Below, piece by piece: positions 1 to 49,859 of a stretch of DNA of 64,000 bases (positions are counted from its first letter, which is position 1; each line of letters starts with the position of its first letter). The stretch spans positions 1 through 64,000 of the forward strand of contig CACYHN010000001.1 in NCBI GenBank assembly GCA_902774275.1, read 5' to 3'. The position numbers and the translations under genes were made by a program. The stretch is from an uncultured Bacteroidales bacterium. Its GTDB lineage: Bacteria; Bacteroidota; Bacteroidia; Bacteroidales; Bacteroidaceae. The notes beneath the pieces are model-generated. The model had not been told where the DNA came from and searched no databases. It saw only the letters and a program-made list of their open reading frames with translations.

Positions 1-1259
1 CCTGCAATCGATGTCCAGAGAGAGAACTGTTTTCCTATTTCAATAGGCTCATTGCCGTTCATCTGACCTGAATAGGGAATGAATATGCTGTGTCCCTCAA
101 ATCCGGGAACATTGCTTGTAAAACGCATTCCGGCTACACCGTTCAGGGTAGCAGTATCATAAGTGCAGTTTTTCACCAACTCTACAATCTCATCGTTGGT
201 AGGAATACGCCAGCCGTCACCTAACATTACTGTAGCTGCGTCATCGGTCGGCTCAAGACGGTTAAGATTGTCGGCCTTAAGTCCCTGATGAGACATACCG
301 TCAATGGTATATTTATCCATACCCTGATCCTGCTGGAAGGTGCAGTAACGGTAATTGTTCCAGGAGAAGAACTCCTTGGGCTCAATCTCGGCCCATGCAT
401 AATAGTCACCGTAACTTTCCGGGGCCGATGCTCCCAAATTGGATGTAGCCCACAGCACGCTCAGTCCAAGATCAACGTATTCATACTCATGAGGTGTCAC
501 AGTTACGGAGCATTCCGCTGTCTTTCCGTATGCAGTTACCTGTACCTTGCAACTACCCGGACCTGCAGCCACCAAAAGGCCGTCCTCAACAACTTTTATC
601 ACCTTTTCATCGGAGGATTTCCAGGTGCAGGCGCTGTTAACATTACGCTTTCCCATCATCACTTCCAGCCTGGTGCTTGCGCCCTGATGTATTGACAGTT
701 TCTTCTTTTCCAGAGTGATTTTGGATAGCTCTTTGCCAGACAACGGCATTACCATGCGAACCGACTGTTCCGCCCAGCTGTTCTCGCTGTGCCATTCATC
801 GGCTCCAAGCTTAAAGTTGAAACCGTAAGCGGCTTCACCATCCGGTTGCACTCCTGGTGTGGAGCTCCAATATGCAGCATATGCGTTATACGCTTCAACA
901 CGACTATTATTGAGCCAGCCGGCAGCCGGAAGGAATATGCTCCGGTCCGTATATCCTTTTATCTTGCTTGTTACCTTATATCCCTCTATTCCATTCTGCT
1001 CGGTCCATTTCCATGAGCAGTATTTGCGCAGTTCCTCCCACTCAGCCTTGGTGCCCATACGGCTACCATCGGTAGTCTTGATGGCCACTGCATCATTCCA
1101 GCGGTAATAATCACCAGCCGGTCTGTCGGCAGTAACACCGGTATTGACGGTATTCCACTTTACACTCAATCCCAAATCCACATACGTGGCATCCTGTGCA
1201 GACACCATTCTGCACATAACGCTGAAAAATACAATTACTGAAAGACGGATAAATCTCAT
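1..1259 (-). CDS. Secreted FISUMP/Ig-like (Big_2) repeat protein, partial (3' end beyond window)
   Basis: The frame is open from an ATG at 1259 to the left edge (about 419 residues visible, no stop), so the C-terminus is missing. Residues 1-21 form a signal peptide ending in VSA before QDA. Two related modules follow, each opening with YVDLGLSVxW and a GDYYxW motif (about residues 25-155 and 250-419), typical of the FISUMP-type domain in secreted Bacteroidota proteins. Between them, about residues 165-245, lies a bacterial Ig-like (Big_2) stretch with KKxLxIxxGxS and a closing CSVTVTP. The protein is probably exported or surface exposed. No enzymatic motif is seen and the function is unknown. 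It has its own promoter and a terminator separates it from the radical SAM gene upstream. Confidence 0.85.
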   Translation of the reverse strand, partial: MRFIRLSVIVFFSVMCRMVSAQDATYVDLGLSVKWNTVNTGVTADRPAGDYYRWNDAVAIKTTDGSRMGTKAEWEELRKYCSWKWTEQNGIEGYKVTSKIKGYTDRSIFLPAAGWLNNSRVEAYNAYAAYWSSTPGVQPDGEAAYGFNFKLGADEWHSENSWAEQSVRMVMPLSGKELSKITLEKKKLSIHQGASTRLEVMMGKRNVNSACTWKSSDEKVIKVVEDGLLVAAGPGSCKVQVTAYGKTAECSVTVTPHEYEYVDLGLSVLWATSNLGASAPESYGDYYAWAEIEPKEFFSWNNYRYCTFQQDQGMDKYTIDGMSHQGLKADNLNRLEPTDDAATVMLGDGWRIPTNDEIVELVKNCTYDTATLNGVAGMRFTSNVPGFEGHSIFIPYSGQMNGNEPIEIGKQFSLWTSIA

Positions 1260-1283: not shown

Positions 1284-1291
1284 CAAAAGTA
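1284..1291 (-). promoter_or_regulatory. -7 promoter box TACTTTTG for the FISUMP-protein gene
   Basis: The minus strand reads TACTTTTG, an exact match to the Bacteroidota primary sigma factor -7 consensus TAnnTTTG, 24 bases upstream of the ATG at 1259. The -33 region is T-rich without a clear TTTG at ideal spacing. Confidence 0.6.
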
Positions 1292-1320
1292 TCACCCCCT
1301 TAATCCAAAAACAACAAAAA

Positions 1321-1342
1321 AGCGCTGCAATTCTGTTGCAAT
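1321..1342 (-). promoter_or_regulatory. Candidate activator site: bipartite TTGCA element, copy 1
   Basis: The plus strand reads AGCGCTGCAA, four bases, then GTTGCAAT; on the minus strand this gives two TTGCA direct repeats 11 bases apart. Both flanks and the spacer length are identical to 48811-48832. Here the element ends 29 bases upstream of the -7 box, there 30, so it lies beyond the -33 region where an activator would bind. A binding function is inferred. Confidence 0.45.
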
Positions 1343-1455: not shown

Positions 1456-2535
1456 TCATTTTGCGTTCTTGATTTTCAGGAAGTTGCAGGAGAGCATGCG
1501 GCCGTTTTCACCGCGCAGGTGCATTGCTCCACCCTGGCAGTATCGCCAAGCCTTGCATTTGCCGCATTCATCGGTCTTCATCCATTTGCGGTCGCGGTAA
1601 GGTTTGAAACCGTTTTCCCAGACATCCCAGAAATTATCCTGATGTATATTACCCTGATGATAGTCACTGCGTATGCTCAGACAACCCGATATGGAACCGT
1701 CATTAAGTATTGAGGCAACTGTAAGTCCGGCCACACAACGAAACAGATGGTCGCGGACTATTCCCTCATAAGGACCTACAAATCCTTCACATGAGTAGTT
1801 CAGCTTGATCCTGCCTTCACGGCGTACCGCAGCGATATAATTCATAAGCTGCACATACTGCTCATCTGATATGGTCAGTTCATCGTCGCCGGCGGCACGG
1901 CCCATAGGAGCCACAGTGAAGATACGCCACTGTCTGACGCCACGGCTGATAAGGTACTCCTTGAATTTATCCAGATAATCAAAGTTACGTTTGTTTACGC
2001 AGGTGATAAGATCCCAGGTAAGCCCCCTATGTTCATTGAACCAGTCAATGGCTGCGTCGGCACGCTTAAAGCTCAGGTCACTGCCGCGCATCCAGTTATG
2101 CTCCGGCTCAAAACCGTCAAAACTCATGGCAATCGTGTCAAGGCCTGTATCCACCAGTTCATTTACCTTTTCACGGGTAAGCAGCATACCGTTGGTAACC
2201 ATTCCCCACAGATATCCGCGTTTCTTGATTTCAGCACCCACCTGGACTATATCTTTACGCACCAGAGGTTCACCGCCTGTTGTAATGACTACGCATCGGC
2301 CACGCTCAAAATCCTTTGGACTGCTGTCCAGTACGCCCAGAAGGTCACTCATGGGAGGATCATCCAGCCCGGCAGTCTTGCGGCAGTCACTTCCGCAGTG
2401 GCGGCAGCTAAGGTTACAACGCAGCGTACACTCCCAAAACAGCTGGGTGAGTTTATGCTCCAGAATCTCCGTACGCAGTGCCGCTCTACCGGCCTCAAGG
2501 ACTAATCTCTTGGCAAACGTAATCTTACAATCCAT
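1456..2535 (-). CDS. Radical SAM/SPASM protein, TIGR04133-like (rSAM/lipoprotein system)
   Basis: A 359-residue radical SAM enzyme. The cluster-binding motif C40-x3-C44-x2-C47 sits in a segment LFWECTLRCNLSCRHCGSD that is characteristic of the TIGR04133 family. Other radical SAM landmarks are TTGGEPL and a VTNG motif. A C-terminal SPASM-like region has Cys324, Cys327, Cys333 and Cys350 (CGKCKAWRYC and a final SC), suggesting an auxiliary Fe-S cluster, as in peptide-modifying radical SAM enzymes. It follows the lipoprotein gene by 21 bases and is closed by a strong terminator, so the two form a dedicated cassette. In the named family the enzyme pairs with a small lipoprotein, the presumed substrate; the chemistry is not established. 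Family assignment is firm, substrate inferred. Confidence 0.9.
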   Translation of the reverse strand: MDCKITFAKRLVLEAGRAALRTEILEHKLTQLFWECTLRCNLSCRHCGSDCRKTAGLDDPPMSDLLGVLDSSPKDFERGRCVVITTGGEPLVRKDIVQVGAEIKKRGYLWGMVTNGMLLTREKVNELVDTGLDTIAMSFDGFEPEHNWMRGSDLSFKRADAAIDWFNEHRGLTWDLITCVNKRNFDYLDKFKEYLISRGVRQWRIFTVAPMGRAAGDDELTISDEQYVQLMNYIAAVRREGRIKLNYSCEGFVGPYEGIVRDHLFRCVAGLTVASILNDGSISGCLSIRSDYHQGNIHQDNFWDVWENGFKPYRDRKWMKTDECGKCKAWRYCQGGAMHLRGENGRMLSCNFLKIKNAK

Positions 2536-42668: not shown

Positions 42669-45600
42669 TTATTCCACCGTAATAGCGGCAGAAGTGGTTG
42701 TAGCACGGAAAGCGGGAGCATAGAGGCACTGCATCACAGCATTTCCTACAGTGAAACGACCCGGTTTCTGCACGTTCACCTCATACTCTATCACGTAACT
42801 TCCCTTACTCAGACGGTCTATGTAGAAGACGTTACGGGTATTGCCCGGTGCTGAATAATAGCCTATGTCATCACGCCAGTTGTAACTGTAACCGGCAGCG
42901 GTACTTACAGGCTCAACGGATGCGGCACGCATATCGGCAAGCTGCAGATACTCCAGGTTACGGTCTGTCGTAAGGTCAAAACGTATCCTCAGACGGTCAC
43001 CTACATGAAGCTTGGTACCCTCCTTGACCTCCTCCAGACGGTCACCGTCAGCACCGTGTATCACGCGCAAGATGGTTCGTTTGAGTGACATTCCGTTCTC
43101 CTGTTTCTCAACCTTGTCAAGTTCTTCAGTAAATGAACGGTAAACTGCACCCCAACTTATGCCCGCGGTCTTGGCATCAACGGTAATATCAGCTTTGTCA
43201 CGGCTTATCGGGCCCTGCCAGGTCTTGGTGGTATAACCGGCCGTAGCCTTGCTGTCCGATGCCTTGACGGCCTCCTTGCCCACATAGATCGTGATATCAG
43301 GATCTGACTCCAACTGCACATTGCTGCCGGTAGCCATAAGAGCCGTAACTGCAGCGGCAGTGGCGGGCGATGAACCCCAACCGGTGGTCTGCTTCTGCTT
43401 GAGCAGCCAGCGTGCAGCCTCAACAGCCTCCTTCTCACGTCCCACTGCAAGCAGAGTGCGGATTATGAGTGCCTGAGTCTCAATGGGAGCCTCATGCCAG
43501 AGCAGTCCGCCCTCGTTGTCACGCCAATATCGGCCCATTTCATCGCTGTATAGAGAACGCTCAACAAGTGTAGCCGCTATGTGCTCAGCAAGCTCTTTCT
43601 TGCCGTTACGTGACATAAGCAATGCCAGCTGTGAACGGAAATAGAGGCTAAGGTTATGCGTATCCTCTATCTCGGCCAGACGTGTAAAGAAGGTGTGGCT
43701 TGCAATCGATTTTCCATTGAAAGGATAAGAGGTGTAGTACGAGCGGGTAAGCAGGTAGCTCAATTCACTGTATCCCAGTAATTCTGGTTTCTTCTCTGCA
43801 TCATACCTCTTGAAAAACAGGCTATCCATATAGTCAAGGCCCTTTTGCAATGTAACCTTTAGCTCTGGAGTAACTTCAATGATACCGTTCTCTATGAGGA
43901 GGCCAAGACACTGCATGATCTCATCAGTGATATGCAGGCTTGCAGGAGAACCATCCAACCATGACCAACTGCCGTCACTGTTCTGAGCATCAATGATCTT
44001 TCTTAGAGCCTTCTCAAAGGCCTGGGCCGTCTCTTCTGATCCAAGATCCTTGGCAAGTGAACGCAAGCGGTCACGCTCACTCCTGCTGCTCCTGAGCCAC
44101 GGAGTCTCCTCAAGCAGGGTTCCGGTAAGCCTTTCATTGCGTTCCAACTGTGTCTGCCACTCTGATGCGGGCAGCTCAGCCCACTCATCAAGCATCTGTC
44201 GGATAGCGGGATATCGGCTTGACAGATCCTGTGAGATGGCAGCACCCATCAGACTATGGAACAGGCGCAGGTTACTGGGATCATCAACCCTTATCATTAT
44301 AGGCAGGCTTTGGATAGCATACCAGATAGGTGTTGCACTGTACTCAAGGGTAAGCTGCTCATCGGCCATAGTGGAGGAACGCGGCTTGTCAAGCACCTCA
44401 AAGCGGAAGGTGCGTTTCTCACTGCCGTTGTTAAAGAGTGAGAGAGCCTGGGTTACCTGCGTACGGTTGGAGAGTACAGGGATGGTCTCCTGAATACCGT
44501 CACTGTGGCCTGTGGTCTCTGCCGTAAGGCGGTAGGTCACAGCCGTAAGCCCAGCCGGAACCTTTATGGTAAATGATGTACTTGCACTTCCCTCTGCGGG
44601 AACGGTAACATTCTTCTTATATCCGCCCTCTATAATGCCCAGAGCCTTGCCCGTAACAGCATCAGTAAGGGTCATCGTGACTACAGCCTTCTGATTCTGT
44701 TCAGTCATATTGCTCACCTTGACCGTAAACTCCATGCGGTCACCCTGACGCAGGAATCTGGGCGATGCAGGCTCCACCATAATCTTCTTGCGGGTAACAA
44801 GGGTGGTGTCAACACGGCCTGTCTGTAGAGAATCCGTGAATGCTATACCCTGTATCTTCCACTCAGTGAGCAACTGCGGAACACGGAAACGGTATATGGC
44901 CCTGCCCGTGGAATCTGTAATAAGATACCCGAACAGACCGGTAGGATTCAGGTCTGAGCGTATGGCAACCGCACCACTCTGCTCATCAATCATGCCCTGC
45001 AAGTCCTCTTCCGGCAGAGAACGGGTATCAAACACAATATCCATATTGGAAAGGCCGCCCTGAAGTACCTCATCAACGGTGGTAATACCCAGACCCTCAA
45101 AATCAGCTTGATTAATGGTGGCTGCTGATGCCAGAGGTACGGACTGTGCGGATGCATTAAATGCAACGTCAGCAACAAGATCCACAGCCATCTCATTACT
45201 CTTGTACATCCTCATGCCACGGGCTCTGCGGCTGTAATTCATGAACGGGTCAATAAGAGTACCCGTAATGGCGCGCTTGCCCTTATATTCATAACTGTTA
45301 CCGAATACATGCAGCCAAGGTGCATACTGGCCTGATGTATTGTAACCATTCTGCAGGAGGCTGCGACCGCCTACCCATTTTGAACCGAACGGAGAAAAGA
45401 CAATCCTGTTCACTCCGTACTTGTCAAGTGCGCGGTCATACATGTCAAGCATGATAGCGGCAGTTACGGGATTGCCCTGCCAGTCTGATATACGGATATT
45501 CCACTCCTCTGCCTCATCAGGCTCCAGGATGTTACGGAATGTTTCAAGTTCAAACCTGAGCTGTTTGGGACGGTCAGGAACCTCAAACTGGAAAGACCTG

Positions 45601-48600
45601 TTTTCTGATACGCCTTCATATATCACGCAGCAATGCACGGCAAACATACCCACAAGCTCATCGGTTACAGGAATACTCAGAATCTGCTGCTTGCCGTTGC
45701 TCTCCAGCATACCACGGTCATAGACACCGTACTTGTTTTCTATAATGTAATGTATCAGCGTGCCCTTACGGCTGTTTCCCAGTCTGATACGGGCGGTATC
45801 ACCAACCTCTGCGCTATATATACCACGTGAAGTCTTCTCTTTATCAAAACTGCATAACAACGGTTTCTGGGGCATGAAACTATAGTCATCCTCGTTGAAG
45901 AACGTGAACTCTGTAACTGATTTCCTACACATTGCAGCATTGGCAGTCACGCGATAGATGCCGGGCTGCAAGCCGTCAAGCATAAGCATCATAGACTCCC
46001 TGTCATCCTTATCAAACGGAACCACACCTTCAAATACAGGAATCTCCATGATGTCTTCACCGTTCAAGTCAAAATCATAACGCGGGAAACGCTCCTTAAG
46101 ATGCTGGTTGGAGATACATTTTGACAGATCCTTCTTTTCTCTGCCTTCAACGATGCTGAAAGGTAGAGGCAGACCCGGAGTTTCAAGCCAGCTGAGACGT
46201 GACACCTTGACATTGATATCGCCTGATACCAGGTTGTTGTTGGCAGTACTTGTCAATCGGAATAAGAGGGTCTGAAGACCGTTTTTACCCAGCACGGAAC
46301 CCTGTGATGCTACATAGATCTCTCTCTCCGCCTTATTTCTGGCACCATATGAAATATTGTATTCATGCGTCTCACCGTTCAAGTCAGTGACAACGGCATT
46401 TACATGCACCCAGCAATACTCTTCAACCATTATATCACCAGGAACGGTCACATCAAAACTGAATGAACCGTCAGAACCGGTTTTAGCCTGACCGGCCCCA
46501 ATCCTTACATCACCCCTATCATCAAGGATACAGAACCTGTGACAGGCAAATGAGCCCACTCCGGCATACCACGTCACAGAGGCCCCATCTACCGGAATAC
46601 CGGTAAATGAAATAGCCTTACCTTTTATCGTAACCGGTTTGTCATACCTTACCTCATCCTTTACATCATCTATCTTAACCTCAAACTTAGGCTGACGGAA
46701 TGACTCCACCTTTATAGCTCTGGAACCAGCAAAATCATATTTATCATCTTCATCTGATTCCGCAAATATTTCAATCGATCCGGGCATACAGTTTTCAGGT
46801 ATCTTATAACTGCCCTTGAATACGCCCATGCTGTCTGTCACAAGAGCATATGAGGCCTCATCGTCACCGTCACCATTCATATCAAAGAACTCTATGGCAA
46901 CATTGACCGTAACCCCTGCCAACACATGCCCATTCTCCCCGTCATTAGTATATACTACACCTGAATACTGCACGGAATCACCGGGCAGATAAGTGAAACG
47001 GTCTGTGAAAACCCTCACATACTGCCGCTCAGGCATATCACTCTTCCATGGGATATTGAATGTGGCGTTACCACGACTGCCGCCACCCTCCAGTTCAATC
47101 CTGTAACGGCTGTTGGCCAGGCCTTCCACCAGGATATATCCGTCAGAACCGGTTATGCCACTTGTAGCCACCTTGACCAGTTCATCATTATAGTTGGTCT
47201 TCCACACTGTATATTTGCAGTCCGGGATAGGCTTGCCGCTGCGTGTGTCAACAGCTCTTCCGTACAGAGTTCCATTGTTCTGCACCATATTGAGGAATCT
47301 GATACCGTTACACTCCAGATACTCGTAAGCAATGCAATCACCGCTGTTGAAATAGGGGCCTGTCGATGCCAACAGGTAATAGCAGCCCTGCATCACAGGT
47401 GTTATATCGGCAAATGCAGAGTGTTCCATGAAATCACCCGGATCATCCACCCTCATACTCCACTCCACTACCGTCGATGACTGGTTCAGCTCTGACATAA
47501 GGGTTATCTCATCCTTTCCCCTCTCCATACGGCCGGTAGCCTCCACCAACTTAAGATAAATGGTGTTGACATTCCTGAAATTCAGCTTGGCTATATTGCG
47601 CTCTCCGGGCACAAGGTCAGAATCAAGTGTTATCCTTACACTCTTACGCTCTATCTCTTCCTTGATGGCAAGGCACTCAAGCGCGCCTTCACTCTTGGGC
47701 CATTTCTTCTGGGCGGCAATACATATATCACGTGCCTGACGCATCAGGTTTTCTGCCTTTTCATCGGACATTTCCTGACCCATGCTGTCAGTTATCTTGC
47801 GCGCTGCCTTGCTATAGAGCATGGTGCTGAACTTGACCTTCTTGGTATATGACTCAGCCAGGGCTACGGCACCTTTGAGCCACTCCTCATCATTCCTGTC
47901 CCACTTACCGTCATTTGACAGGTATTCATCAAGAACCTGCATCCTCCTTATATCAATGGTACAGCGGATATCAGGCTTGGCTCCGTAATTATGCTGGGTA
48001 AGACGTCTCAGCACATAGATCATCCATAGGTCAGGGTCATCAGGTGTAACATCAATTGTAGCCGCCAGAAAATCCTGCATGGTACCGTACAGACGGCTGT
48101 CATTAAAGAACGTACGTTTGCCTAAAGTGAGCCTATAATCTGTAATCAGCACTATTGCGTTGTCCATGAGCATGTCCACCAGGTTGGGGCGTAGTTTCTG
48201 TCCCGCCTTGTTTCCGCCAGGGAAAAACTCCAGATAGTAGCCCGATGACACATAGCCCGCCAGTTTGATGGACTGGTCCAGATGGTAGCAGATGGTGTCA
48301 CATATCATCCTGGCCGTCCAACGCTCCAACGGCAGGTTTTCTTCATCTGACGGGTCATTTGTCCTGAATCTGTATTTGTTCAGTTCCCAGAACCTTATAT
48401 AACCCTTGGCAATGAATGCATGGCACAACGCCTTATGCTCCTGCACCCTCAGCTTGGGCAGAAGCGTATTGAACAGTTCCAATCCGGAAGAAATGCTGTT
48501 CTCGCTGTAGGATTGCTGTACTTGGGTAATATAGACGGCACTCTTAAGCATCTGGCGGCCGTCATTATCCTCTGCGGCCATATCCCAGATATGGTTTATC

Positions 48601-48743
48601 TCCTTAGCCGCACTCTCAGGGAGGTCATCCTTAATAAGTTTTTCCACCTTCTTCCAGGCGCGTGAATACTTATCCGCGCTGGCAGTCACAGTAGTCAGTG
48701 TCATAATGATAATCAGAAGTGTAATTTTACAAAGGCATCTCAT
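42669..48743 (-). CDS. Alpha-2-macroglobulin-like protein lacking a thioester motif, with a plug-like insertion
   Basis: A 2024-residue exported protein with signal peptide (MRCLCKITLLIIIMTLTTVTASA). The N-terminal 350 residues are helical. Macroglobulin-type beta domains follow, with an MG2-type YLPGDSVQYSGVVYTND near 584 and FRQPKFEVKIDD. Around 1209-1274 is GITTVDEVLQGGLSNMDIVF, reminiscent of TonB plug sequences. The A2M domain (TEWKIQGIAFTDSLQTG near 1294) follows. At 1486-1505, where thioester-bearing relatives have a CxEQ motif, the sequence is DDPSNLRLFHSLMGAAISQD, with no Cys-Glu-Gln. The helical toroid (AQNSDGSWSWLDGSPAS near 1590) and a C-terminal beta domain complete it. It may trap or inhibit proteases or bind other ligands without covalent capture. 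Confidence 0.88.
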   Translation of the reverse strand: MRCLCKITLLIIIMTLTTVTASADKYSRAWKKVEKLIKDDLPESAAKEINHIWDMAAEDNDGRQMLKSAVYITQVQQSYSENSISSGLELFNTLLPKLRVQEHKALCHAFIAKGYIRFWELNKYRFRTNDPSDEENLPLERWTARMICDTICYHLDQSIKLAGYVSSGYYLEFFPGGNKAGQKLRPNLVDMLMDNAIVLITDYRLTLGKRTFFNDSRLYGTMQDFLAATIDVTPDDPDLWMIYVLRRLTQHNYGAKPDIRCTIDIRRMQVLDEYLSNDGKWDRNDEEWLKGAVALAESYTKKVKFSTMLYSKAARKITDSMGQEMSDEKAENLMRQARDICIAAQKKWPKSEGALECLAIKEEIERKSVRITLDSDLVPGERNIAKLNFRNVNTIYLKLVEATGRMERGKDEITLMSELNQSSTVVEWSMRVDDPGDFMEHSAFADITPVMQGCYYLLASTGPYFNSGDCIAYEYLECNGIRFLNMVQNNGTLYGRAVDTRSGKPIPDCKYTVWKTNYNDELVKVATSGITGSDGYILVEGLANSRYRIELEGGGSRGNATFNIPWKSDMPERQYVRVFTDRFTYLPGDSVQYSGVVYTNDGENGHVLAGVTVNVAIEFFDMNGDGDDEASYALVTDSMGVFKGSYKIPENCMPGSIEIFAESDEDDKYDFAGSRAIKVESFRQPKFEVKIDDVKDEVRYDKPVTIKGKAISFTGIPVDGASVTWYAGVGSFACHRFCILDDRGDVRIGAGQAKTGSDGSFSFDVTVPGDIMVEEYCWVHVNAVVTDLNGETHEYNISYGARNKAEREIYVASQGSVLGKNGLQTLLFRLTSTANNNLVSGDINVKVSRLSWLETPGLPLPFSIVEGREKKDLSKCISNQHLKERFPRYDFDLNGEDIMEIPVFEGVVPFDKDDRESMMLMLDGLQPGIYRVTANAAMCRKSVTEFTFFNEDDYSFMPQKPLLCSFDKEKTSRGIYSAEVGDTARIRLGNSRKGTLIHYIIENKYGVYDRGMLESNGKQQILSIPVTDELVGMFAVHCCVIYEGVSENRSFQFEVPDRPKQLRFELETFRNILEPDEAEEWNIRISDWQGNPVTAAIMLDMYDRALDKYGVNRIVFSPFGSKWVGGRSLLQNGYNTSGQYAPWLHVFGNSYEYKGKRAITGTLIDPFMNYSRRARGMRMYKSNEMAVDLVADVAFNASAQSVPLASAATINQADFEGLGITTVDEVLQGGLSNMDIVFDTRSLPEEDLQGMIDEQSGAVAIRSDLNPTGLFGYLITDSTGRAIYRFRVPQLLTEWKIQGIAFTDSLQTGRVDTTLVTRKKIMVEPASPRFLRQGDRMEFTVKVSNMTEQNQKAVVTMTLTDAVTGKALGIIEGGYKKNVTVPAEGSASTSFTIKVPAGLTAVTYRLTAETTGHSDGIQETIPVLSNRTQVTQALSLFNNGSEKRTFRFEVLDKPRSSTMADEQLTLEYSATPIWYAIQSLPIMIRVDDPSNLRLFHSLMGAAISQDLSSRYPAIRQMLDEWAELPASEWQTQLERNERLTGTLLEETPWLRSSRSERDRLRSLAKDLGSEETAQAFEKALRKIIDAQNSDGSWSWLDGSPASLHITDEIMQCLGLLIENGIIEVTPELKVTLQKGLDYMDSLFFKRYDAEKKPELLGYSELSYLLTRSYYTSYPFNGKSIASHTFFTRLAEIEDTHNLSLYFRSQLALLMSRNGKKELAEHIAATLVERSLYSDEMGRYWRDNEGGLLWHEAPIETQALIIRTLLAVGREKEAVEAARWLLKQKQTTGWGSSPATAAAVTALMATGSNVQLESDPDITIYVGKEAVKASDSKATAGYTTKTWQGPISRDKADITVDAKTAGISWGAVYRSFTEELDKVEKQENGMSLKRTILRVIHGADGDRLEEVKEGTKLHVGDRLRIRFDLTTDRNLEYLQLADMRAASVEPVSTAAGYSYNWRDDIGYYSAPGNTRNVFYIDRLSKGSYVIEYEVNVQKPGRFTVGNAVMQCLYAPAFRATTTSAAITVE

Positions 48744-48772: not shown

Positions 48773-48780
48773 CAAATATA
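48773..48780 (-). promoter_or_regulatory. -7 promoter box TATATTTG for the alpha-2-macroglobulin-like gene
   Basis: The minus strand reads TATATTTG (TAnnTTTG), 29 bases upstream of the ATG at 48743. Confidence 0.6.
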
Positions 48781-48810: not shown

Positions 48811-48832
48811 AGCGCTGCAAAAACGTTGCAAT
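48811..48832 (-). promoter_or_regulatory. Candidate activator site: bipartite TTGCA element, copy 2
   Basis: The plus strand reads AGCGCTGCAA, four bases (AAAC), then GTTGCAAT. The flanks and spacer length match 1321-1342 exactly; the spacer bases differ. It ends 30 bases upstream of the -7 box and one base after the ruvB stop codon. Confidence 0.45.
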
Positions 48833-48833
48833 T

Positions 48834-49859
48834 TTACTCAAAAAGGTCACCTGACATTGAGGCGTAGCGGGAACGGCCCAGATGTGTATAGGCCAGATCC
48901 GTCACCTCACGTCCGCGCGGTGTACGCTTGAGGAATCCCTCCTGGATAAGGAACGGCTCATACACATCCTCTATGGTTCCGGCATCCTCACTGAGTGCCG
49001 TGGCAATTGTACCTATACCCACCGGACCACCCTTGAACTTGTCAATGATGGTGGTCAGTATGCGGTTGTCAATCTCGTCAAGACCGTACTTGTCTATGTT
49101 GAGAGCCTCAAGAGCGATATTGGCTATGGATACGGTGATACGCCCTGATCCCTTTACCTGCGCAAAGTCACGCACGCGGCGCAACAGGGCATTGGCTATA
49201 CGGGGCGTTCCTCGGCTACGTCCCGCAATCTCAGCAGCAGCATCCACATCGCAAGGTATGCCCAGGATACCGGCTGAACGCAGAATGATCTTCTGCAAAG
49301 TCTTGGCATCATAATACTCCAGATGCATGTTGATGCCGAACCTTGCGCGGAGCGGTGCGGTAAGCAGGCCGCTGCGGGTGGTGGCACCTATCAGGGTAAA
49401 CGGGTTGAGGTCTATCTGTATGCTGCGGGCCGACGGACCCTTGTCTATCATGATGTCTATACGGTAATCCTCCATGGCTGAGTAGAGATACTCCTCTACC
49501 ACAGGCGACAGGCGGTGGATCTCATCAATAAAAAGCACATCCTTGGGCTCAAGTGAAGTAAGGATTCCGGCCAGGTCACCCGGCTTGTCCAGCACGGGGC
49601 CCGATGTAATCTTGAAGCCCACGCCCAGCTCATTGGCTATGATGTTGCTCAACGTAGTCTTACCCAGTCCGGGAGGGCCATGCAGCAGGGTATGGTCAAG
49701 CGATTCGCCACGCTGACGGGCTGCCTGCACAAACACACGCAGGTTATCCACAATCTTGCCCTGTCCGGCAAAATCATCGAACTTAAGCGGACGCAGAGCG
49801 TTATCCAGCTCCTTGTCACTCGTCAACTGCTGTGCTCTTATATCGAATTCCTCATTCAT
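48834..49859 (-). CDS. ruvB: Holliday junction branch migration ATPase RuvB
   Basis: A 341-residue AAA+ motor of the RuvAB complex. Motifs are [12 protein letters not shown], Walker [12 protein letters not shown], Walker [14 protein letters not shown], sensor [18 protein letters not shown] and the C-terminal winged helix with [27 protein letters not shown] (written in part). Length is normal. ruvA and ruvC are not in the window. It follows hisS across the composite repeat at 49862-49964. Confidence 0.97.

Follow-up and report, generated by a model that had tools for sequence, protein, structure and literature searches.

A tandem 7-bp direct repeat, found twice in the 64,000-nucleotide stretch of uncultured Bacteroidales DNA analyzed here (the window), belongs to a family of sites with a fixed placement upstream of predicted Bacteroides-type promoters, most of which precede genes for exported-looking proteins; the family is kept across one clade of the genus. 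As a pattern, its role as the operator of a promoter family is near certain, and as regulation it is very probable; binding and activation at the site are predicted from sequence. We judge it slightly better than an even bet that the site serves as operator for a PhoB-type DNA-binding domain predicted to sit on a fusion of a Na/Pi cotransporter with PhoU, through which surface protein genes would be switched by phosphate.

Two copies of the site in the window

The initial annotation had singled out the pattern AGCGCTGCAA-N4-GTTGCAAT at positions 1321 to 1342 and 48811 to 48832. Both copies are indeed found at these coordinates without a mismatch, and the pattern occurs exactly twice in the window, with no third match at up to three mismatches. 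A chance origin of the pair is unlikely, as had been argued, with 0.10 matches expected in the window and two or more obtained in 1 of 100 shuffles. The description of the copies as intergenic, identically oriented, and upstream of genes for exported proteins is likewise correct, as are the 11-bp distance between their TTGCA repeats and the distance of 29 nt (copy 1) or 30 nt (copy 2) from the site to a TAnnTTTG box. As an interpretation, the proposal of a dimeric activator that contacts one face of the helix just upstream of -33 at surface protein promoters is supported by the results below; a -33 TTG is present at copy 1 and not at copy 2, in which nt 7 to 9 after the site read ACG.

Copy 1 (1321 to 1342, minus strand) reads ATTGCAAC-AGAA-TTGCAGCGCT on the coding strand and is followed by a predicted -33 TTG (1312 to 1314, minus strand; nt 7 to 9 after the site) and a predicted -7 box, TACTTTTG (1284 to 1291, minus strand; 29 nt after the site). 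The gene downstream (3 to 1259, minus strand), which is cut by the window edge, encodes an exported Ig-like/FISUMP-type protein with a signal-peptide-like N terminus, a Big_2 domain (PF02368), and a match to Lcl_C (PF07603) below that family's Pfam cutoff. Its predicted start, the signal-peptide-like one, is at 1259; the longest open reading frame (ORF) call, 3 to 1373, has its start at 1373, on the far side of the predicted promoter from the gene. The upstream neighbor of this copy is a gene for a radical SAM/SPASM protein (1456 to 2535, minus strand; Pfam). Copy 2 (48811 to 48832, minus strand) reads ATTGCAAC-GTTT-TTGCAGCGCT and starts 1 nt past the stop codon of its upstream neighbor (48834 to 49859, minus strand), which by homology we take to be ruvB and which served to mark the orthologous place in relatives. 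Its predicted -7 box, TATATTTG (48773 to 48780, minus strand), follows 30 nt after the site, with no TTG at nt 7 to 9, and precedes the gene for a 2,024-aa exported protein resembling bacterial-type alpha-2-macroglobulins (42669 to 48743, minus strand; PF17973 and PF00207, with PF01835 just under its Pfam cutoff).

A family of sites with a composite promoter

The window copies are not merely a pair but part of a larger family in their own genome (2.10 Mb in 107 contigs, 78% complete), which has 16 matches at up to three mismatches, versus none for the reversed pattern. Twelve of these (L001 to L012) are intergenic and share a layout in which, on the coding strand, ATTGCAAC-N4-TTGCARCGCY is followed after about 6 nt by a TTG in most cases and, about 20 nt further on, by the -7 box and then the start codon. 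The proteins encoded downstream are mostly exported-looking, the exception being the transporter-like product at L011. The remaining four matches lie inside ORFs and are probably due to chance.

A search of 37 genomes of the genus with RGCGYTGCAANNNNGTTGCAAT at up to one mismatch recovered 205 sites in 28 genomes, with 1 to 20 per genome, and none with the reversed pattern; outside the family, a single site was found in 1 of 24 genomes from other families of the order. We gathered 128 distinct sites, chosen at up to one mismatch, a set that includes one site from another family and a few entries in which a site is counted again through an overlapping or reverse reading. Their fuller coding-strand consensus, ATTGCAAC-RKTT-TTGCARCGCY, resolves into 7-bp direct repeats with a 4-nt spacer and an 11-bp period, and the half-site positions are conserved in 124 to 128 of the 128 sites, with two exceptions, the leading T (109) and the A/G position of the second half. 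An inverted-repeat reading, TGCAA-N5-TTGCA, was also considered: the core TTGCAA is self-complementary, so both readings fit it, and the direct repeat is favored because a C is conserved after both half-sites and because one promoter in G025 has three units at 11-bp steps. That promoter (L036; G025:C2:96490-96522) is built of three tandem TTGCAACGC units.

The placement of the site relative to transcription signals is equally constrained. TAnnTTTG starts 28 to 31 nt past the site in 113 of 127 cases and occurs in none of eight control windows (122 to 125 sequences each), and 101 of 128 sites have a TTG at nt 7 to 9 past their end; these are the -7 and -33 elements of a predicted Bacteroides-type promoter. 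An ORF of at least 80 aa begins within 400 nt of the site in 124 of 128 cases (median, 60 nt), and 99 of these 124 ORFs have a hydrophobic N-terminal core. The distances to TAnnTTTG and to the downstream ORF refute a random placement of the copies relative to genes. Where two promoters diverge, in L122 and L123, each promoter has its own site, with the -7 box at 29 to 30 nt. Pfam analysis of 91 downstream proteins, left after removal of redundant ones from 116, recovered CarboxypepD_reg (25), CarbopepD_reg_2 (17), DUF4419 (14), LRR_5 (6), Big_2 (6), Lcl_C (4), TonB_C (3), MFS (2), and ten further families with one member each; no phosphate-related family was among the matches of these 91 proteins.

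The site is also conserved upstream of an orthologous gene. RuvB was found in 35 genomes, and the gap after ruvB was read in 30 of them; the clade of the window was defined by a RuvB at least 95% identical to its own. Within this clade, the ruvB/alpha-2-macroglobulin gap contains the site at up to two mismatches in 18 of 21 genomes (it is missing in G011, G025, and G008). Outside it, the site follows ruvB in one of nine genomes (G023), and in five of the other eight, merely 35 to 53 nt separate ruvB from the next gene. On the basis of these short gaps and site-less loci, the site-bearing promoter seems to have been gained after ruvB.

Mobile elements end at the upstream edge of the site

The site does not lie within a longer mobile repeat, a possibility that would have spoken against an operator; mobile repeats do, however, terminate at its upstream edge. 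Among the 7,503 pairs of sites with flanks long enough for scoring, 80 share the upstream flank only and 47 the downstream flank only, with homology breaking at the site. In L005 and L077, the neighbors on both sides are about 98% identical and the spacers are unrelated. One of the upstream repeats proved to be the right end of a roughly 1.5-kb element, which its terminal inverted repeats and rve transposase (orfB) assign to the IS3 type. Of the 17 right ends of this element that could be read, 16 have TGCAAC-N4-TTGCA starting exactly 11 nt past the repeat core, and 15 of these 16 have the full site; two more right ends run off their contigs. None of nine left ends adjoins a site. We read this pattern as target preference, the insertion sequence apparently aiming at a regulator's operator; its insertion swaps the upstream neighbor and leaves the site and the promoter intact. 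Copies of the element include L159 (G007:C111), L128 to L147, and one in the own genome (L003/L130) upstream of G000:C5:37766; L159 has an orfA-like ORF before orfB with only a weak helix-turn-helix match, below its cutoff.

IS1397 and ISKpn1 are described in PMC1525189 as IS3-family elements that target REP sequences. The present element resembles them in combining an rve transposase with a preferred short target, but its target is a promoter-linked tandem repeat, which it has entered in a single orientation among the copies read.

A second repeat (repeat B, up to about 260 bp) occurs in five copies in three of six genomes searched, and all five are followed by the site. It ends in a short ORF, EELDVLCRLAAKYKAVK, and makes up the upstream flanks of L007, L008, L026, L063, and L064, with own-genome copies at G000:C7:84087-84144 and 90864-90921. 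In the upstream flanks of L001, L009, L077, L062, and L103, palindromic hairpins of the GGGACAGTCCC type likewise terminate no more than a few bases from the site. Site-specific inversion or a shufflon was considered on account of contig ends at the site and the sharp homology breaks. Recombination at the site is not needed, because one flank class is the right end of the IS3-type element and because L005 and L077 are syntenic with an exchanged spacer; for repeat B, it could still have taken place.

A predicted phosphate transporter fused to a predicted PhoB-type DNA-binding domain

A passage of PMC4415409 defines the Pho box as two 7-nt direct repeats with a 4-nt spacer and an 11-bp period, located upstream of a promoter. 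Because the 7+4+7 layout of the site corresponds to this definition, we profiled the PhoB-type DNA-binding domain (Trans_reg_C, PF00486) in 23 genomes of the genus and then extended the analysis to all 37 by protein search. The own genome encodes two PF00486 proteins, namely, a 238-aa response regulator and a protein of more than 645 aa that combines Na_Pi_cotrans (PF02690), PhoU (PF01895), and a C-terminal Trans_reg_C domain. This fusion thus has the C-terminal winged helix of a PhoB response regulator; the N-terminal receiver domain is absent, with PF02690 and PF01895 in its place. The recognition helix, RTVDVNITRIRKKI, is identical in eight of nine aligned fusions, with an R-to-H change in G007. 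In an AlphaFold2 model of the fusion (30 sequences; mean pLDDT, 74.9; pTM, 0.45), the C-terminal winged helix reaches a pLDDT of about 75 to 86, and the best Foldseek match in the PDB, which covers that domain only, is 1gxp, the PhoB effector domain on pho-box DNA; the likeness to PhoB was also found by sequence. A protein database search with the C-terminal part returned 333 matches, and 115 of the 120 listed have all three domains. A literature search, with most subscription journals outside its reach, found neither such a fusion nor such a box.

A ToxR/CadC-like regulator was considered and ruled out, the protein being a Na/Pi-PhoU fusion with a C-terminal DNA-binding domain. ToxR, CadC, and TcpP are membrane-held one-component activators with an N-terminal DNA-binding domain and a periplasmic domain behind the membrane helix. 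The fusion resembles them in placing an OmpR/PhoB-type winged helix on a membrane protein but differs in that the winged helix is C terminal, behind the transporter and PhoU.

The fusion is present in 21 of the 37 genomes, its frame being interrupted in G010, and all 21 have at least three sites. Among the 16 genomes without it, G022 has 15 sites, G014 has 9, and G004 has 3; G019, G023, G031, and G032 have 1 each, and nine genomes have none. RuvB places G022 (83% complete) and G004 (62% complete), both of them incomplete, inside the fusion clade; no RuvB was obtained for G010 and G012. Since the site and the fusion are markers of a single clade (RuvB at least 95% identical), their co-occurrence does not amount to independent evidence and is suggestive only. 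In 42 fusion-bearing genomes of other clades, there are 0 or 1 sites each at up to two mismatches.

Other PhoB-type regulators have a different distribution. G014, which lies outside the clade, encodes a PhoB-type regulator with a receiver domain, and its neighbors are a histidine kinase (Pfam-tested) and an unfused Na/Pi gene. In G035, such a regulator adjoins a kinase and pst genes, and G035 and G003 both have a PhoB-type regulator and no site. No close PhoB-type domain was found in G031 and G032, which have one site each. The site of G032 carries repeat B at 93% identity to that of the own genome, and this identity suggests transfer or bin contamination. Likely counterparts of the 238-aa regulator, called by length and score, occur in 32 of the 37 genomes, including eight of the nine site-less ones; in this protein search of the 37 genomes, none was found in G003, G010, G021, G023, and G036, of which G021 has 16 sites, G036 has 8, and G010 has 3.

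Related boxes at phosphate and fusion gene promoters

The upstream regions of 16 phoB, pst, and Na/Pi genes from unfused relatives and outgroups contain 89 windows that repeat at 11 bp, and 5 to 18 windows at each of the other periods from 8 to 15; six of the 16 regions, that of G014 phoB included, have no 11-bp repeat windows. The half-sites are of the TTGTAAC, TTGAAAC, and CTGTAAC kinds, and in G019, TGTAAC and TTGCAAC units are mixed in one array.

We searched for the composite promoter with the key C left open, CAAANNTA-N(30-35)-GNTNCAA-N4-GTTNCAA, in 61 genomes, comprising 11 selected from the genus, 42 fusion-bearing ones of other clades, and 8 of other clades without the fusion's DNA-binding domain. 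Outside the genus, it matched twice, once each in 2 of the 42 fusion genomes, with one match for the reversed control. The match in G102 (L300 and L363) is the promoter of the fusion gene, and that in G100 is the promoter of a Na/Pi gene truncated where its contig stops; this is probably the fusion gene, with its C-terminal part beginning another contig (L294). Of 57 other-clade fusion gene upstream regions listed, 51 were scored for a TTGnAAC pair at up to one mismatch; 9 have it in the forward orientation, 14 have it in reverse, and 28 have neither. In the group L288 to L309, the box (0 to 3 mismatches) stands 32 to 33 nt from T[AT]nnTTTG in all 14 scored loci, which is the spacing of the sites in the genus.

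Within the genus, a TTGTAAC-N4-TYTTAAY-like box in reverse orientation precedes the -7 element by 36 nt in all nine fusion promoters read, with 0 mismatches in seven, 1 in one, and 3 in one relative to a pattern derived from the same nine promoters. No TTGCAAC site was found upstream of any of the fusion genes read; the boxes there are TTGTAAC, in reversed orientation in the genus. The promoters of the 238-aa regulator have a box at up to two mismatches in zero of eight cases, and no box at up to one mismatch was found at the pst operons of six genomes from the fusion clade. An ordinary phosphate regulon, with the pst operons lacking the site, was thus ruled out. The pst operons of G007, G009, G022, G026, G029, and G033 (L338 to L343) are headed by a PstC of 646 to 687 aa with a PstS-like N-terminal half (Pfam-checked in G022). 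In the fusion genome G005, an array of three TTGnAAC units of the TTGTAAC type at 11-bp steps, with a -7 box (L386; G005:C20:88145-88202), precedes a predicted glycosidase (DUF5597/GH42, Pfam) and not a phosphate gene.

Relation to the Pho box

The site shares with the Pho boxes of PhoB/PhoP (CTGTCAT repeats in E. coli), as far as the consulted source describes them, the 7+4+7 layout, the 11-bp period, and the position upstream of a promoter. It departs from them in its half-site, TTGCAAC, and in the surface proteins encoded downstream, and its candidate reader, unlike PhoB/PhoP, lacks a receiver domain and is joined to a transporter. PhoB boxes take the place of the -35 region, whereas the present site stands upstream of the -33 TTG without replacing it. 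We therefore do not class it as a Pho box, though it is built like one, because two defining features that were tested, replacement of the -35 element and control of phosphate genes (pst and phoB), are absent. In the same order as the present lineage, the PhoB protein of Bacteroides fragilis binds the pstC promoter in gel shift assays, and its deletion also alters stress and capsule genes, according to excerpts of PMC3547664; the PhoRB system described there is a two-component system with a separate kinase.

Which protein reads the site

The fusion is inferred as the reader because of the Pho-box layout of the site, the distribution of the fusion, and the same-period TTGTAAC boxes at many fusion promoters; that its PhoB-type domain reads the site we hold to have about an even chance. 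A possible though less probable reading is that the site is a true activator operator with another reader, either the 238-aa response regulator or a member of an AraC- or LytTR-like family, with the fusion as a bystander of the clade. Both site and fusion are clade traits, the fusion genes have TTGTAAC in place of TTGCAAC, the fusions of other clades occur without the regulon, and PF00486 was the only regulator family profiled, all of which leaves room for another protein. Nevertheless, the 11-bp direct repeat with its 7+4+7 arrangement is the layout of a PhoB-type domain, and the 238-aa regulator is a poor match for the sites, being present in nearly all site-less genomes, not found in three site-bearing ones, and without such boxes at its own promoters. 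The nine sites of G014, outside the clade, also occur together with a PhoB-type regulator.

Two further readings appear improbable. Under one of them, the site is chiefly an insertion target for mobile DNA, namely, the IS3-type element and other repeats, and recombination rather than regulation has spread it upstream of genes. This would accord with the arrival of right ends, and of none of nine left ends, of the IS3-type element at one exact base, with the homology breaks, and with the unrelated spacers of L005 and L077. Yet a target alone leaves the fixed distance to the -33 and -7 elements unexplained, the sites of the ruvB/alpha-2-macroglobulin gap are kept directly after ruvB without such a repeat, and the divergent promoters in L122 and L123 each have a correctly spaced site of their own. 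Slightly less credible still is a core promoter element, an extended -33 or UP-like sequence read by the sigma factor or polymerase, to which the fixed position directly upstream of the -33 TTG and -7 box would be suited. Against it, TAnnTTTG and TTG are ordinary Bacteroides-type signals, the site itself is nearly absent from the genomes of other families of the order (one hit in 24 genomes), and the three tandem units of the G025 promoter suit stacked protein domains.

Were the fusion the reader, two DNA-binding domains of this membrane-held protein would occupy the pair of TTGCAAC half-sites in head-to-tail order along a single helix face, and RNA polymerase would thereby be recruited to the promoter immediately downstream. 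The transporter/PhoU part might relay the state of phosphate transport, such that phosphate supply would switch the surface protein genes; relatives that lack the fusion probably rely on a PhoR-PhoB-like pair instead. The upstream edge of the site also serves as a landing place for the IS3-type element, at which the upstream neighbor changes and the promoter is kept. Taken as a whole, we offer only tentatively the scenario in which, in one Bacteroidales lineage, a phosphate transporter has itself become a transcription factor, a Na/Pi cotransporter-PhoU protein having acquired the half of PhoB that binds DNA, the old Pho box has changed from TTGTAAC to TTGCAAC, the regulon has been rewired from phosphate uptake to fast-changing surface proteins, and an IS3-type element lands at the same box.

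The analysis provides an explicit sequence for the putative operator, a candidate for its regulator, and a dozen promoters as predicted targets. If the fusion does act in this manner, it would couple nutrient transport directly to transcription, with no kinase in between, and would help to account for the way in which an uncultured lineage of the gut and rumen determines its surface coat. The site would also provide a bacterial case of a mobile element that apparently targets the binding site of a regulator, a safe place at which the promoter is kept.
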